A stretch of 64,000 bases of DNA from Ignavibacteria bacterium (lineage in GTDB: Bacteria > Bacteroidota > Ignavibacteria > Kapaibacteriales > Kapaibacteriaceae). Position 1 is the first letter of the stretch; each line of letters starts with the position of its first letter. The stretch lies in assembly GCA_013204605.1 (NCBI GenBank), contig JABMNI010000056.1, positions 1-64,000 on the forward strand, read 5' to 3'. Below are positions 3,483 through 26,047 of this stretch, piece by piece. The notes beneath the pieces are model-generated. The model did not search any database. It saw only the letters and a list, made by a program, of their open reading frames with translations, and was not told the DNA's origin. The position numbers and the translations under genes were made by a program.

Positions 3483-3541
3483 TTCCCCGGCAACGACAGC
3501 CGCTTCCCCGGCAGGAACTCCCCGGCAGGAACTCCCCGGCA
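3483..3541. repeat. CCCCGGC(A) repeat array upstream of RAYT
   Basis: cttccccggca / ctccccggcaggaa units. Confidence 0.9.
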
Positions 3542-3542
3542 G

Positions 3543-4204: not shown

Positions 4205-4210
4205 CGAATT

Positions 4211-4276
4211 CCTCCCCGGCAGCGGCCTCCTCCCCGGCAGGAACTCCCCGGCAGCGGCCTCCTCCCCGGCAGCGGC
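4211..4276. repeat. CCCCGGCA repeat array downstream of RAYT
   Basis: Four CCCCGGCA cores between agcggcctcct and ggaact spacers. Confidence 0.9.
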
Positions 4277-18223: not shown

Positions 18224-20656
18224 TTAGGCAGGGGGCTTTCTGTTTGGTTTCCCCTTATTCGTAGAACGCTTCTTTCCGCCACCGTGCTTTTTACCACTCG
18301 CACTTGGAGCAGAATTTGAACCGCCGCTAGGCGTTGATTTGCCACTACCGCCGCGCGGTTCTGACTTGCCACCGCCACTGCGTGGTTCAGACTTTCCACC
18401 ACCGCTGCGTGGTTCAGACTTTCCACCACCGCTGCGTGGTTCTGACTTGCCACCGCTGTGTGATATTTTCTTAGGTCTGTCATCGGTTCTTTCTTCGCCA
18501 GTTTTCTTCGGCTCGGTTTCATCCAATGGAATGTCGGCCAAATGCAAATCAACCATTCGCTTCTTGATATCGGCTCGAACAATTTTCACCTTCACCATGG
18601 TGCCAAACTGAAATGTGCGTCCGCGTTTGCGTCCTACCAAACGGAATTTGCGTTCGTCGAAGAAGTAGTAGTCATCCTTGATATCCTTAATGTGCAGCAG
18701 ACCCTCGCAGTACAAACCTTCCAACAGCACAAAAACCCCAAAGCCCGTTATCCCAGTAATCCTGCCGTTAAATTCTTCGGCAAGGTGTTCTGAGGCGAGA
18801 ATGGTTTGCGCGAGTTTGTTTGAAGCGCGTTCGGCTTCGACACTTTTTCGTTCAGTAATTGAACACTGACTTGATACCTCTTCGGCTTGTTGGTACAAAT
18901 CATTCCAGCGTTTCGGATCTGGTTTTCCCAGCGCATATTCTTTGATTGCTCGGTGTACAATTAGGTCGGGGTAGCGCCGGATAGGGGACGTAAAGTGCGC
19001 ATACTCCTCGAAGCCCAGACCAAAGTGTCCCACGTTAAACTCAGAGTAAATCGCCTTTGCCATCGACCTCAGAAGCAGACTATTGATAACGGGCTTTTCG
19101 GCGCGGTTGTGGGCTTGGGCAATGATGGCGTTAATCTCGCGCGGACCCAACTTTCCACTCGGTACGTCAAAACCAAGTGCGCGAATAACGGAAACAGCAT
19201 CAGTTAATTTTTCTACGTTGGGAGTTTCGTGTACGCGGTACACGAGTGCCGGAGCCTTTTTTGTACCCCAGATTTTTTTCAAACTATTCACATGCTCGGC
19301 TACTGTTTTGTTTGCGGCCAACATACACTCTTCAACCAACGAAGTGCTTTCGGTTCTGGATTTCACTGAAGCGCTGATTGGTTGTTTGAATTCGTCCAAC
19401 TGAAATTTTATCTCCTGCGTTTCAAAATCAATTCCGCCTTGTTTCATTCGGTTGCGATAAAGAACTTGCGACAGTTTATGAAGTCGTAAAACTTCTACGG
19501 CAAACTCACCCTGTCCCGTTTCGATTATTTGAAGTGCTTCATCGTACGTAAACCGGCGCACACTTTTTATCAGTGATTCGTGAATTCGGTAGTTGCGTAC
19601 AACGCCTTGCGGATCGAATTCCATGAACACCGAAAATGCGAAACGATGCTTGTTGGGAACAAGAGAACAAATATTGTTCGACAAATGTTCGGGCAACATA
19701 GGCACTACGCGGTCGGCCAAATACGTACTGTTACCCCGCGCCATGGCTTCATTATCGATGGCTGAACCCTCGGTTACATAGGCCGATACATCGGCAATGT
19801 GCACGCCCAATTCAAGATTTCCATTTGCTAAATCATTTATCGAAAGTGCATCGTCAAAATCGCGTGCATCATCAGGATCGATGGTGATAATCGTTTCGGC
19901 AGTCAAGTCAACGCGGCCACGAGGTGCGCGTGCTGACGGCTCTGAAAAAGCAGCCGCTTCACGTTCTACTGCATCAGTAAAACCAATTGGTAAATCGAAT
20001 TCTTTAACAATTGCCTCGAACTCAACAGCAGCGTTGCCCGACTTGCCAACAATTTCAGACACTTCAACTTCGGGCGAAGAATTGGGATGCTTCCATTGCA
20101 AAAATTTTGCAATCACTTTATCGGAATGCTTGGCTCCTTTTAAATTTTTCTCAGCAACTATGAAGTCGATATAATATTTTGCTTCATCTGGAACCAGATA
20201 ATAAAAATTACCCTCCAACTCGATAGTTCCACTAATTAACTGGCTAGACCGCTCGACAATGTCAACCACTTCGCCCTTGATTTTTTGTCCGGTGCGAACT
20301 GCGTGCGGCTTCACGCGCACTATATCGCCATCGAGCGCGGTGTACAAATTCTGCCGGTCAATGTGAATTATCGGAAACGCTTCGTCGGTAGTCTGCACCG
20401 TTGCACGGTTATGATAGAACGTAATCACCCCTTCAAAACCATGCGAATCTTGCGGTCGAATTCTAAACCTTCGACGGCTCATTTTTTCAACCAGATTTTC
20501 ATCAACCAATTTTTGCAGCATGTGACGAAGCATTTCATCGTCTTCGCCGTCGGCACGTACCCGAAGTTGTTTCGAAATTTCTATTAATTGAAGGGGCTCA
20601 GTGGCTCCCGTAAGAAGTGCGATTATTTCATCGCGATAGTCGGATTGGATTGCCAT
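18224..20656 (-). CDS. rnr: Ribonuclease R with repetitive basic C-terminal tail
   Basis: DPDDARDFDDALS catalytic motif, S1 domain, KSEPRSGGG repeats. Confidence 0.93.
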   Translation of the reverse strand: MAIQSDYRDEIIALLTGATEPLQLIEISKQLRVRADGEDDEMLRHMLQKLVDENLVEKMSRRRFRIRPQDSHGFEGVITFYHNRATVQTTDEAFPIIHIDRQNLYTALDGDIVRVKPHAVRTGQKIKGEVVDIVERSSQLISGTIELEGNFYYLVPDEAKYYIDFIVAEKNLKGAKHSDKVIAKFLQWKHPNSSPEVEVSEIVGKSGNAAVEFEAIVKEFDLPIGFTDAVEREAAAFSEPSARAPRGRVDLTAETIITIDPDDARDFDDALSINDLANGNLELGVHIADVSAYVTEGSAIDNEAMARGNSTYLADRVVPMLPEHLSNNICSLVPNKHRFAFSVFMEFDPQGVVRNYRIHESLIKSVRRFTYDEALQIIETGQGEFAVEVLRLHKLSQVLYRNRMKQGGIDFETQEIKFQLDEFKQPISASVKSRTESTSLVEECMLAANKTVAEHVNSLKKIWGTKKAPALVYRVHETPNVEKLTDAVSVIRALGFDVPSGKLGPREINAIIAQAHNRAEKPVINSLLLRSMAKAIYSEFNVGHFGLGFEEYAHFTSPIRRYPDLIVHRAIKEYALGKPDPKRWNDLYQQAEEVSSQCSITERKSVEAERASNKLAQTILASEHLAEEFNGRITGITGFGVFVLLEGLYCEGLLHIKDIKDDYYFFDERKFRLVGRKRGRTFQFGTMVKVKIVRADIKKRMVDLHLADIPLDETEPKKTGEERTDDRPKKISHSGGKSEPRSGGGKSEPRSGGGKSEPRSGGGKSEPRGGSGKSTPSGGSNSAPSASGKKHGGGKKRSTNKGKPNRKPPA

Positions 20657-22172: not shown

Positions 22173-23560
22173 TAGAAACGTTACTACCAATACTTTATCT
22201 CGTTGCTTCGGTTACGTTTATTATCGGACTCAAAATGTTGGGTTCGCCAAAGTCTGCACGTAAAGGAAACTTAATTGCAGGCTTCGGTATGTGTTTGGCT
22301 ATTGCCGGAACAATATTGTTCCACACAGATTCCGCCGGTACACACTTGCACAATATTCCGCTGATTCTTGGCGGTATTGCAGTGGGAACCATTATTGGCT
22401 GGATGATGGCCGTGAAGGTAAAAATGACGGCGATGCCCCAAATGGTTTCGTTCTTTAATGGAATGGGTGGCGCTTGCGCTGCACTGATTTCGTTGATGGA
22501 GTATAAAGAAACGGGAAGTGTATCTGCCGGACACGGTGCCGCTACTATGGCCGGATTGATAATAGGTTCGATCTCTTTTAGTGGGTCGATCATTGCCTAT
22601 GTTAAGCTCGAAGAACGCATGGGCGATATTCGATTTACCGGACAACAACTCGTTAACAACGGTTTACTACTTGCTGTTTTAATTGTTGGTGCGTGTCTTG
22701 CATTAAGCGCATTAACTGGATTCCCACTAGCGTTACTTTTAACAGCTGGTGCATTATTATTCGGCGTCTTGTTTGTACTTCCAATTGGTGGTGCGGACAT
22801 GCCGGTAGTAATTTCTCTACTCAACTCATTCACCGGCGTTGCCGCTGCGTGTGGTGGTTTCTTGTACAACAATATGCCAATGTTGATTGGTGGAATTCTT
22901 GTTGGTAGTGCCGGAACGTTGTTAACGGTTGTTATGTGTAAGAGCATGAACCGTTCCATTTGGAACGTGCTGCTTGGCAATTTCTCTGCGCAAGGTGCTG
23001 CATCAGGAGCAACCGAAGGCGCCACCGGTACCGTACGCGAAGTAAGTGCTACCGATGCTGCTGTACTTATGGCGTATGCTAAAACCGTTGTAATTGTACC
23101 CGGCTATGGTTTGGCCGTGGCCCAAGCACAACACGCCTGCCATCAGTTAGAAAACGAACTCGAAGAAAAAGGCGTAACGGTAAAGTACGCGGTTCACCCC
23201 GTTGCCGGCAGAATGCCGGGTCACATGAACGTGCTACTTGCCGAAGCCGATGTATCGTATGATAAACTTGTCGAGATGGAAGAAATCAATCCTGAGTTTC
23301 CAACTACCGATGTTGTGTTAGTTGTGGGTGCAAACGATGTGGTGAACCCCGCAGCAAAAACCGATACGGCCTCTCCTATTTACGGAATGCCAATTCTCGA
23401 CGTCGAACTTGCAAAGCAAGTTATTGTCATGAAACGTTCCATGAAAGCCGGCTACGCCGGAATCGAAAATGAACTCTTCTACCGTCCGAACACGTCCATG
23501 CTGTTTGGCGATGCGAAGACGAGTATGTCGGCGTTGGTAGCGGAGATCAAGTTGATCTAA
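22169..23560 (+). CDS. pntB: NAD(P) transhydrogenase subunit beta
   Basis: VVIVPGYGLAVAQAQH, NDVVNPAAKTDTASPIYGMPIL, GYAGIENELFY. Confidence 0.95.
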   Translation: MIETLLPILYLVASVTFIIGLKMLGSPKSARKGNLIAGFGMCLAIAGTILFHTDSAGTHLHNIPLILGGIAVGTIIGWMMAVKVKMTAMPQMVSFFNGMGGACAALISLMEYKETGSVSAGHGAATMAGLIIGSISFSGSIIAYVKLEERMGDIRFTGQQLVNNGLLLAVLIVGACLALSALTGFPLALLLTAGALLFGVLFVLPIGGADMPVVISLLNSFTGVAAACGGFLYNNMPMLIGGILVGSAGTLLTVVMCKSMNRSIWNVLLGNFSAQGAASGATEGATGTVREVSATDAAVLMAYAKTVVIVPGYGLAVAQAQHACHQLENELEEKGVTVKYAVHPVAGRMPGHMNVLLAEADVSYDKLVEMEEINPEFPTTDVVLVVGANDVVNPAAKTDTASPIYGMPILDVELAKQVIVMKRSMKAGYAGIENELFYRPNTSMLFGDAKTSMSALVAEIKLI

Positions 23561-23561
23561 T

Positions 23562-23706
23562 GTGAAAATGTGGAAATGTGAGAATGGCAATGTGAGTCAA
23601 ATGTGAAAATGTGAAAATGTGAGAATGCCAATCTCAATGTGAAAATGTGGAAATGTGAGAATGGCAATGGCAATGCCAATGAGAAAATGTGGAAATGTGA
23701 GAATGG
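23562..23706. repeat. AATGTGAAAATGTGGAAATGTGAGAATGGC intergenic repeat cluster
   Basis: At least four related units beginning at the pntB stop. Confidence 0.9.
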
Positions 23707-23739
23707 CAATGTCCAAAAGAGTATAGTCCAAAAAGTGTA

Positions 23740-24081
23740 ATGAGATTCACGCTAACACTTAGACCCCTCAACATTGGTGACGAGCAGGAGTTTTTGAGTG
23801 CGCACCGTGCTACTTCGCCGGATTTCCCGAACTTTTTGCACTACTATGAAGAGGGGATGGAGTTTGGCAAGTACATTGAGCGGTTGGCCGAAGTTGAAGA
23901 GGGGATCAATCTGCCTTCGCACAAGATTGTGCCGTCGTCGTTTTTGTTTGCGTTTGATGGTGAGCGGATTGTGGGGCGAACGTCAATCAGACACAGGCTG
24001 AATGAATTTTTAATGGTGGAGGGCGGCCATATAGGATATGCGGTTGTGCCTGAATTTCGACGACGAGTTATTACCGGGTAG
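23740..24081 (+). pseudogene. C-terminally truncated GNAT acetyltransferase
   Basis: N-terminal GNAT fold; ends at VPEFRRRVITG* where the RRxGxG/A acetyl-CoA loop is expected. Confidence 0.65.
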
Positions 24082-24094
24082 TTATTACCGGGTA
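24067..24094. repeat. 14-bp direct duplication GTTATTACCGGGTA spanning the stop codon
   Basis: Direct reading. Confidence 0.95.
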
Positions 24095-24097
24095 CAT

Positions 24098-25033
24098 TTA
24101 GATGAGTATTGAGGTGTCTGAAACCTTATCCAGTGCGTTCAACGTTAGTGTTTCAAGACCCTCATCTGCCAAGACGGAGGTGGTGTTTTCGATGTGCAGA
24201 ACCTCTACTTTTCCAACTTCTACGCCCGACTTCTTGCGCGGAGCAGCGGATACATTGTGCAGCCGAAGGTTTGCAAAAACTGTGGGGAGCACCACGCGCA
24301 CGGGTCCAAACTTTTCGGTTGTGTGTGCATCTGCATGTTGAAGAATAATGCTCCGATCATATTCGCTAAATGCTTCAGCTGGTAACGAGACAATCGGAAC
24401 CAGCGTCTCATTTTTTTTGATACCGAAGTGAAAATGAAATCCGTCGGCGTCGCGTTTTACTGAAAGTAGAACAGCCGTCACGTCGAATGGAGCGCCGTTA
24501 ACAAATGTCGGCGCTTCGATGCTCAACAAGTAGTTATCAGAAACACAAAGCCCCTTAACAATACTCGATCTGAATCCGCCAACCAGCATTCGGTTAAACA
24601 GGATTCGCTCGGGCGTGTGGAGTTGCATCCAGGTGGTGGAAATGAGTTCGCGTTGGGCAGATGGCGCGCTGATGGAAAGTTGGTCGAGAATTGTTAGCAC
24701 GTAATGTAGGGAGGGGGCTTTGCAGCGCGCATCGGTGAGCGGCACACAGAGCGCAGAGCTTTCGGAGATCGAGGCGGTGTGAAGTTTGCATTGGTCGAAT
24801 AGCCATAGTGGAATGTTTGCAACTGCGCATGTAAGATCGGCTAGTGTGGTGTAGGAAATGATGCGCTTGGTGTGCCTGCCCGTTGCAAGGTTGCAAAGGA
24901 ATTGTTTGTGGGTTGCATCGGGTAGGCTTTGTATTACGCTGTTTAGCTCCGACACTACGCTATGTAACTGCGACACTTTGTTCGATGGTAGCGTTAGTAT
25001 GCTTGGCGTGAATATTGGTGTTAGTCGTTGCAA
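24098..25033 (-). CDS. ATP-dependent DNA-ligase-like protein lacking the adenylation domain (ligase N-terminal domain + OB domain)
   Basis: LFNRMLVGGFRSSIVKGL (ligase N-domain end) runs into OB-domain-like TEKFGPVRVVLP..VSAAPRKKSGVEV; no KxDG; 311 aa. Confidence 0.65.
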   Translation of the reverse strand: MQRLTPIFTPSILTLPSNKVSQLHSVVSELNSVIQSLPDATHKQFLCNLATGRHTKRIISYTTLADLTCAVANIPLWLFDQCKLHTASISESSALCVPLTDARCKAPSLHYVLTILDQLSISAPSAQRELISTTWMQLHTPERILFNRMLVGGFRSSIVKGLCVSDNYLLSIEAPTFVNGAPFDVTAVLLSVKRDADGFHFHFGIKKNETLVPIVSLPAEAFSEYDRSIILQHADAHTTEKFGPVRVVLPTVFANLRLHNVSAAPRKKSGVEVGKVEVLHIENTTSVLADEGLETLTLNALDKVSDTSILI

Positions 25034-25060
25034 AGTAGAGAGGGAATTAAGCAGTGAAAA

Positions 25061-26047
25061 TTATTCAGTGAGAATTTCTGAAATGTCGAAGGCTTCGGTG
25101 TTTTGCTGACGCAAGAATTTTACAAAGGCTGAAGTATCGCCGTGCATGGCAATCACGCGCGAGCAATTCACATCCTTTACGGTTTGAATGAGTGTGGGCC
25201 AGTCTGCGTGATCACTTACCACAAAGCCCCTTGCACCATTTGAATCAAATCGTTTTTGCGAGACGTTCCAGCCGGAGGCGGTTGCGAGTGAGAGGCGCGT
25301 GTTGGGTCCGTGCAGAGTGTTGACGTTTCCATTGGGTCCGTGCTGCGTGTTGGCGCTCCCACCTGCAGACGTGAGCACCAGGCCATCGGCGGTTGCAACC
25401 GGCAGACGCGAATACTGCGGTACCGGGATTCCGGTGTTTACGATTACTTGGTTGGTGGCGTGAATGGAATCATCAACATACACTGTTCCGATGGACTGAT
25501 CTAGCGCGCACAGAAGGCGTTGCGCCTTTCCAAGTGGATACACGTGAATGACGCTGGTCCTGCCAGACAAAATATTTTGCTGCCACCACGCGTGAACGTC
25601 GCGCATTACGAGTTGCATATCGGGCCACTGATAAATTGGCAGACCAAATGTACACTCAGTTACAAAGGTGTCGCAGACGATTGGTTGGAAGGGGGCTGCA
25701 ATAGGATCGGAATCTCGTTTGTAATCGCCGGTGCACACCCATACTTCGCCTTGGTGTTCAACGCGAACTTGGGCCGAACCAATCACGTGACCAGCGGGAT
25801 GAAGTGAAATCCATGCATCGCCAAGTTTTATTTGTTGGTCGTATTCTAATTCGGTGACGTTAATGTTGTTGCCCAGGCGGTGACGCAGTATTGGGGCTGT
25901 GTGCTTGTGCGTGATATAGTGCTGCATACCACGACGCGCATGATCGGAATGTCCATGCGTAATAACGGCAGTATGAGTAGATCGCACCGGATCGATGCAA
26001 AAATCGCCAGGCACACAGTGCAGTCCATTACGTCGAGTAAACATCAT
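25061..26047 (-). CDS. Ligase-associated metallo-beta-lactamase-fold DNA exonuclease
   Basis: THGHSDHARRG, PAGHVIGSAQV, CTGDYKRDSDP, SDHADWP. Confidence 0.85.
   Translation of the reverse strand: MMFTRRNGLHCVPGDFCIDPVRSTHTAVITHGHSDHARRGMQHYITHKHTAPILRHRLGNNINVTELEYDQQIKLGDAWISLHPAGHVIGSAQVRVEHQGEVWVCTGDYKRDSDPIAAPFQPIVCDTFVTECTFGLPIYQWPDMQLVMRDVHAWWQQNILSGRTSVIHVYPLGKAQRLLCALDQSIGTVYVDDSIHATNQVIVNTGIPVPQYSRLPVATADGLVLTSAGGSANTQHGPNGNVNTLHGPNTRLSLATASGWNVSQKRFDSNGARGFVVSDHADWPTLIQTVKDVNCSRVIAMHGDTSAFVKFLRQQNTEAFDISEILTE

Follow-up and report, generated by a model that had tools for sequence, protein, structure and literature searches.

The locus described here raises a simple question: what use does a bacterium make of a DNA ligase from which the catalytic domain is missing? 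The gene lies within a window (the whole stretch of DNA that was analysed) of 64,000 nucleotides from the genome of an Ignavibacteria bacterium, hereafter G000 (2.69 Mb, 100% complete, a draft of 86 contigs), a member of the Candidatus Kapaibacterium lineage, and is followed by profile, structure, tree and selection analyses in its relatives. The reading that we regard, taken as a whole, as reasonably likely is that of a retired LigB ligase which serves the exonuclease encoded next to it as a non-catalytic DNA clamp or adaptor, with sealing left to LigA.

A ligase-like frame and its partner exonuclease

The gene occupies positions 24098–25033 of the window, on the reverse strand as all features of the locus given below, and encodes an adenylation-domain-less LigB-type protein of 311 amino acids, with a TTG start. 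The ORF lies precisely at the coordinates originally given, and its frame is a real coding sequence: the other two frames of its strand contain 14 and 13 stops, none of 5000 base shuffles stayed open, and codon usage across the ORF favours the annotated frame. Two NCBIfam models match the protein, NF006701 (1.7e-18) and TIGR04120 (5.2e-12), each in two stretches; the best TIGR04120 stretch aligns aa 28–160 with profile positions 21–150, and a second one, on profile positions 424–499, was recovered at the DNA level. The TIGR04120 score, 45.5 bits, is below the curated family cut-off of 400 bits, and a Pfam search of the ORF gave no match.

The two stretches correspond to an N-terminal all-helical ligase DNA-binding domain (DBD; aa 1–157, positions 24563–25033), recognized by both models, and to a ligase OB fold (aa 183–282, positions 24188–24487). 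Between them, at the site of the nucleotidyltransferase (NTase), or adenylation, domain, the alignment places only a short linker of about 25 residues (aa 158–182, positions 24488–24562). The KxDG motif and NTase motifs I–V are missing, as had been noted from the sequence; the extent of the loss, put at about 200 aa, had been underestimated, the gap amounting to some 240–270 profile positions. Within the OB fold, GPVR (aa 243–246, positions 24296–24307) and RKKSG (aa 266–270, positions 24224–24238), the latter corresponding to the conserved RxKSG directly before motif VI, are still recognizable; motif VI itself is degenerate, GKVE (aa 274–277, positions 24203–24214) being aligned with the usual RFPR, in keeping with the absence of this motif in the original prediction.

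An AlphaFold model, built on a 39-row alignment (mean pLDDT 85), features a helical domain (aa 4–151, pLDDT mostly 84–98) and an OB fold of beta strands (aa 183–282, pLDDT about 84–96), separated by the uncertain linker (pLDDT 58–76). All of its top fold matches in PDB are ATP-dependent DNA ligases, archaeal and human ones being the best, with E values down to 2.6e-8; their TM-scores are low because the middle domain is missing. Matches from a viral fold library were mainly to viral DNA ligases, and a search of PDB by sequence, with this protein alone as query, produced repeat-protein noise only. Both the two-part profile match and the model agree with a ligase N-terminal domain joined directly to the OB fold. 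The protein is thus predicted to be unable to adenylate or seal DNA and, since the defining catalytic ligase features fail, should not be called a ligase.

The adjacent gene (positions 25061–26047) encodes an MBL-fold "ligase-associated DNA damage response exonuclease" (TIGR04122; 344.6 bits, against a cut-off of 325), in which all metal-site His and Asp residues of the family are kept: the partner is intact, as had been claimed. Lying on the same strand, with a gap of only 27 nt (positions 25034–25060) between the exonuclease stop and the ligase-like start, the two genes probably form one transcript. Around positions 25300–25350 the exonuclease contains an internal near-duplicate (HGPNGNVNTLHGPN), located in a variable loop and without counterpart in relatives.

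Deleted, inactivated and fused forms in related genomes

In the host's family, 23 genomes were surveyed. The exonuclease was detected over the cut-off in 13 of them, and the same 13 carry a ligase-like gene, which was found in none of the 10 genomes lacking the exonuclease. Only one of the 13, G006, has the catalytic form, with KWDG and RFPR. G008 (locus L053) encodes a full-length LigB-type protein with TYDG in place of KWDG, and G002 (L056) a nearly full-length one with LVEG at the same site. DBD-OB is a separate gene in five genomes (G000, G003, G005, G016, G019), overlapping the exonuclease gene in G005, G016 and G019 and located about 10 kb from it in G003. In another five, all from one genus (G009, G011, G013, G015, G017), the exonuclease continues in frame, at its C-terminus, into a reduced DBD remnant and the OB fold. 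The model of the G013 fusion (mean pLDDT 88) contains the MBL domain, three DBD helices and the OB fold, its nuclease part matching CPSF73, RNase J and SNM1A. Side-by-side survival of active enzyme, dead enzyme, domain deletion and nuclease fusion in one bacterial family is rare.

Searches beyond the family covered the order, the class, a sample of the phylum and a large set of species genomes. Among the 123 genomes of the order, the ligase model gave a single further full match, to an intact ligase in G029; in G062 it matched part of the catalytic domain only. The class (391 genomes) yielded DBD-OB genes, 293–331 aa long, in all four sampled matching genomes of genus g55 (family f14), away from the exonuclease gene, about 40 kb apart in G126. 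At these loci (L164, L165, L166 and L167), the neighbours of the deleted gene were noted: in G126 and G136 they include a conserved protein some 500 aa long (N-terminus MPRTTLLPEKFLHEVW), as well as an adjoining gene resembling orotidine-phosphate decarboxylase. In G353 (family f28) the deletion lies inside one contig and its junction differs, sequence being kept up to the NTase start; the DBD of this gene is split by a contig break. Overall, the architecture sought in relatives was found with DBD-OB as a separate gene in 9 genomes, split over two contigs in one and fused in 5.

Two full-length proteins of the class are also altered at the KxDG site, which reads GFGSG in G275 (L179, f28) and SIDG in G272 (L180, f15). 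Together with G008 and G002, they indicate that putative pseudo-ligases of full length, devoid of the KxDG lysine, recur in the class. The ligases of genus g64 (f22), found in G137 (L176), G270 (L177) and G164 (L178), keep KWDG, and their motif V, WWKWK, is changed to RFSLN, WLSLN or VSMVN, with loss of the motif V lysines; these enzymes are perhaps partly inactive.

Adenylation-domain deletion appears to be rare elsewhere, as judged from the sequences retrieved. Of 396 genomes sampled from the phylum, 122 gave a match, with no further short form among the matches listed. Among the 80 exonuclease loci closest to that of the window, drawn from 84,980 species genomes, a ligase neighbour was detectable in 70. 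Complete neighbour ligases numbered 68, and the KxDG-type motif was missing only in G005's own locus; with this exception, K(W/Y)(D/E)G is kept wherever the motif I region is covered, a few loci being cut by contig ends. The other 10 exonucleases, the flanks of which were inspected, have no ligase nearby, and the ligase remnant is therefore not obligatory. At one verrucomicrobial exonuclease locus, L118, the ligase is divergent, has KWEG at the motif and is truncated by the end of the contig.

The host genome being a draft of 86 contigs, the deletion might be ascribed to assembly or sequencing error, or be private to G000. The probability of this is negligible, because the same architecture is repeated in 14 other genomes, from 6 further genera and at high protein divergence, and the coding signal spans the whole ORF. 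The orthologues are not, as a rule, full-length proteins with KxDG, which had been named as the observation that would speak for a private deletion; the other objection named, a structure devoid of ligase domains, is contradicted by the modelled DBD and OB folds.

Origins of the remnant and selection acting on it

The exonuclease tree unites the host's family (99/96). One subgroup (91/85) holds G008, G002 and the pair G016/G019; the remaining deleted or fused forms fall mostly in another, near which the catalytic G006 is found. When f14 and G353 are counted, the tree suggests about four separate deletions, a tentative figure, several of its forks being weak and long branches distorting the tree of the ligase domains; the same DBD-OB product has at least two origins, and probably more. 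G275 and G272 suggest extra point inactivations beyond the deletions; the count of catalytic losses is approximate, G272 having been scored as full in this tree despite its SIDG. In the tree of the ligase domains, where the non-catalytic forms sit on very long branches, a single family clade is rejected (p-AU 0.015, with a warning of long-branch effects). The two trees also give different answers as to a single group of fused forms, and the number of fusion events is accordingly put at one to three. Because of its long branches and of this conflict, the ligase-domain tree was not used for counting events.

No other member evolves as fast as the window copy, whose end branch in the ligase-domain tree is 5.08 and whose best identity is 28%. 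Such divergence, along with the loss of motif VI and of many ligase-invariant residues, speaks for a decaying pseudogene, in which the ligase has become dispensable and the open frame is accidental. Selection, as far as pairs of relatives allow it to be gauged, contradicts this explanation. By the Nei-Gojobori method, applied to relatives only, the window copy having no close pair, and with some dS values near saturation, dN/dS is 0.13 for DBD-OB of G016/G019, 0.13–0.16 for f14 pairs, and, in two fused pairs, 0.29 and 0.36 for the ligase part as against 0.15 for the MBL part. The proposed dN/dS check thus finds the remnant under purifying selection in every measurable pair of relatives (dN/dS 0.13–0.36), well below 1.

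Residue conservation was evaluated on 14 aligned deleted forms, all of which have open reading frames. All 14 share GP of GPVR and the R, K and G of RxKSG. By contrast, the motif VI arginine, present in 23 of 23 full-length enzymes, is found in only one of the 14, and the phenylalanine, present in 21 of 23, in none. Conserved OB residues next to a decaying motif VI are what one would expect if ATP chemistry had been given up and a surface for binding DNA or a partner retained. With catalytic residues lost and the fold under purifying selection, the relatives' proteins are candidate pseudoenzymes with a retained role.

A pseudogene is also hard to reconcile with fusions that stay in frame, with a DBD-OB product reached more than once, and with the fact that, in the family, presence of the exonuclease perfectly predicts the ligase-like protein; we consider it improbable. 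The window-type protein is very probably a retained, non-catalytic one, as had been proposed, the conclusion drawing on recurrence, on purifying selection in relatives, on the invariant OB residues and on the absence of an adenylation domain elsewhere in the genome.

A proposed non-catalytic role beside the exonuclease

This last point also bears on a different explanation, a split ligase whose adenylation domain is supplied in trans, for which the modular behaviour of ligase domains might be invoked. A profile search of G000 and of the 14 other genomes with a deleted form detected no PF01068 adenylation domain, and motif VI, needed to work with that domain, has decayed. A split enzyme is accordingly a very remote prospect, and an NTase domain encoded elsewhere in these genomes was discarded on the same search. 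The separate full-length ATP-dependent ligase looked for in G000 is thus missing; the genome has a single normal NAD-dependent LigA, encoded on a different contig, and LigA was found in all six genomes checked. The expected Lhr-type helicase is likewise absent, the best TIGR04121 (Lhr-Core) match in G000 reaching 62 bits against a cut-off of 850; the ligase-like protein, therefore, does not need Lhr.

In ATP-dependent ligases, DBD, NTase and OB domains together encircle nicked DNA, the roles of the domains being those given in PMC4037875. We propose that a vertically inherited LigB-type (TIGR04120) ATP-dependent ligase became degenerate, losing with the NTase domain both adenylation and sealing, and that DBD and OB would have been kept because of a second, non-catalytic job. 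As two half-clamps, they could grip a DNA substrate in the manner of a flexible two-part clamp and, by contact with the MBL exonuclease, tether or position it; nick sealing would fall to LigA. As the natural fusions show, DBD remnant and OB are able to work in cis with the exonuclease; the separate-gene, operon form plausibly works likewise in trans.

The same domains might instead make up a free-standing DNA-binding protein, with no physical link to the exonuclease, which guards or competes for nicks and ends as an inhibitor or chaperone of LigA or of repair. DBD and OB are, in established ligase structures, DNA-encircling parts, and in f14 and G003 the gene is separate and not adjacent to that of the exonuclease. 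Such a protein is nevertheless unlikely, in view of the five in-frame fusions, of genes that overlap or adjoin in G000, G005, G016 and G019, and of the perfect co-occurrence with the exonuclease in the family. A clamp or adaptor for the exonuclease, which fusions and overlapping genes support, is a moderately likely mechanism. More tentatively, somewhat short of an even chance, MBL exonuclease and dead-ligase clamp may constitute a new class of bacterial repair nuclease, of several independent origins in the class, in which the clamp would serve processivity or substrate choice. If a dead-ligase clamp does act on the exonuclease, catalytic LigB ligases would also have a non-catalytic role there.

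Other ligases have a reduced set of domains as well: the minimal ATP-dependent enzymes LigC and LigE keep NTase and OB and have dropped the DBD, the opposite of the window protein, which has dropped the NTase and kept DBD and OB. LigB, exonuclease, Lhr and a phosphoesterase form a described cluster, whose job is described as unknown (PMC10140301). The window locus shares with it the DBD and OB folds, the TIGR04122 partner and the exonuclease-then-ligase order, but its protein has neither adenylation domain nor motif VI, and G000 lacks the Lhr helicase. Fusions of MBL nuclease and LigB are known from Opitutus terrae and from Antarctic Dry Valley metagenomes, the ligase module of one being active (PMC10140301). 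As in the Kapaibacterial fusions, the exonuclease is on the N-terminal side of the LigB-type protein; all ligase domains are retained there, whereas the Kapaibacterial proteins lack the adenylation domain and have a partial DBD. No description of LigB proteins without adenylation domain was found in the literature searched, most subscription journals being outside its scope.

The nearest functional analogy, one of mode of action and not of kinship, is human DNA ligase IV. Its DBD binds Artemis, an MBL-fold nuclease (PMC4037875, PMC9956705), and the catalytically inactive form of this ligase continues to promote repair (PMC9638927). The eukaryotic system is not orthologous and, unlike the window protein, keeps its domains in full. 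The Kapaibacterial remnant is a small protein in which a structural role such as that of inactive ligase IV can be examined directly. Since the catalytic domain has been repeatedly discarded, and the DNA-gripping domains kept beside or inside a nuclease, the ligase's indispensable contribution to this partnership would not be sealing.

Some further features of the window were noted. An apparently shortened GNAT-like ORF of 113 aa (positions 23740–24081, forward strand) ends in a perfect 14-bp duplication (AGTTATTACCGGGT, positions 24066–24094), just beyond the 3' end of the ligase-like gene. Short tandem arrays are found at positions 7–91, 3505–3542, 4210–4276 and 23559–23711; the CTCCCCGGCAGGAA unit recurs at several places in the window, and a AATGTGAAAATGTGG array is located upstream of the GNAT-like ORF. 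At positions 18335–18454, tandem repeats of 27 bp at the 3' end of an RNase R-like gene encode a tail of GKSEPRSGG repeats.
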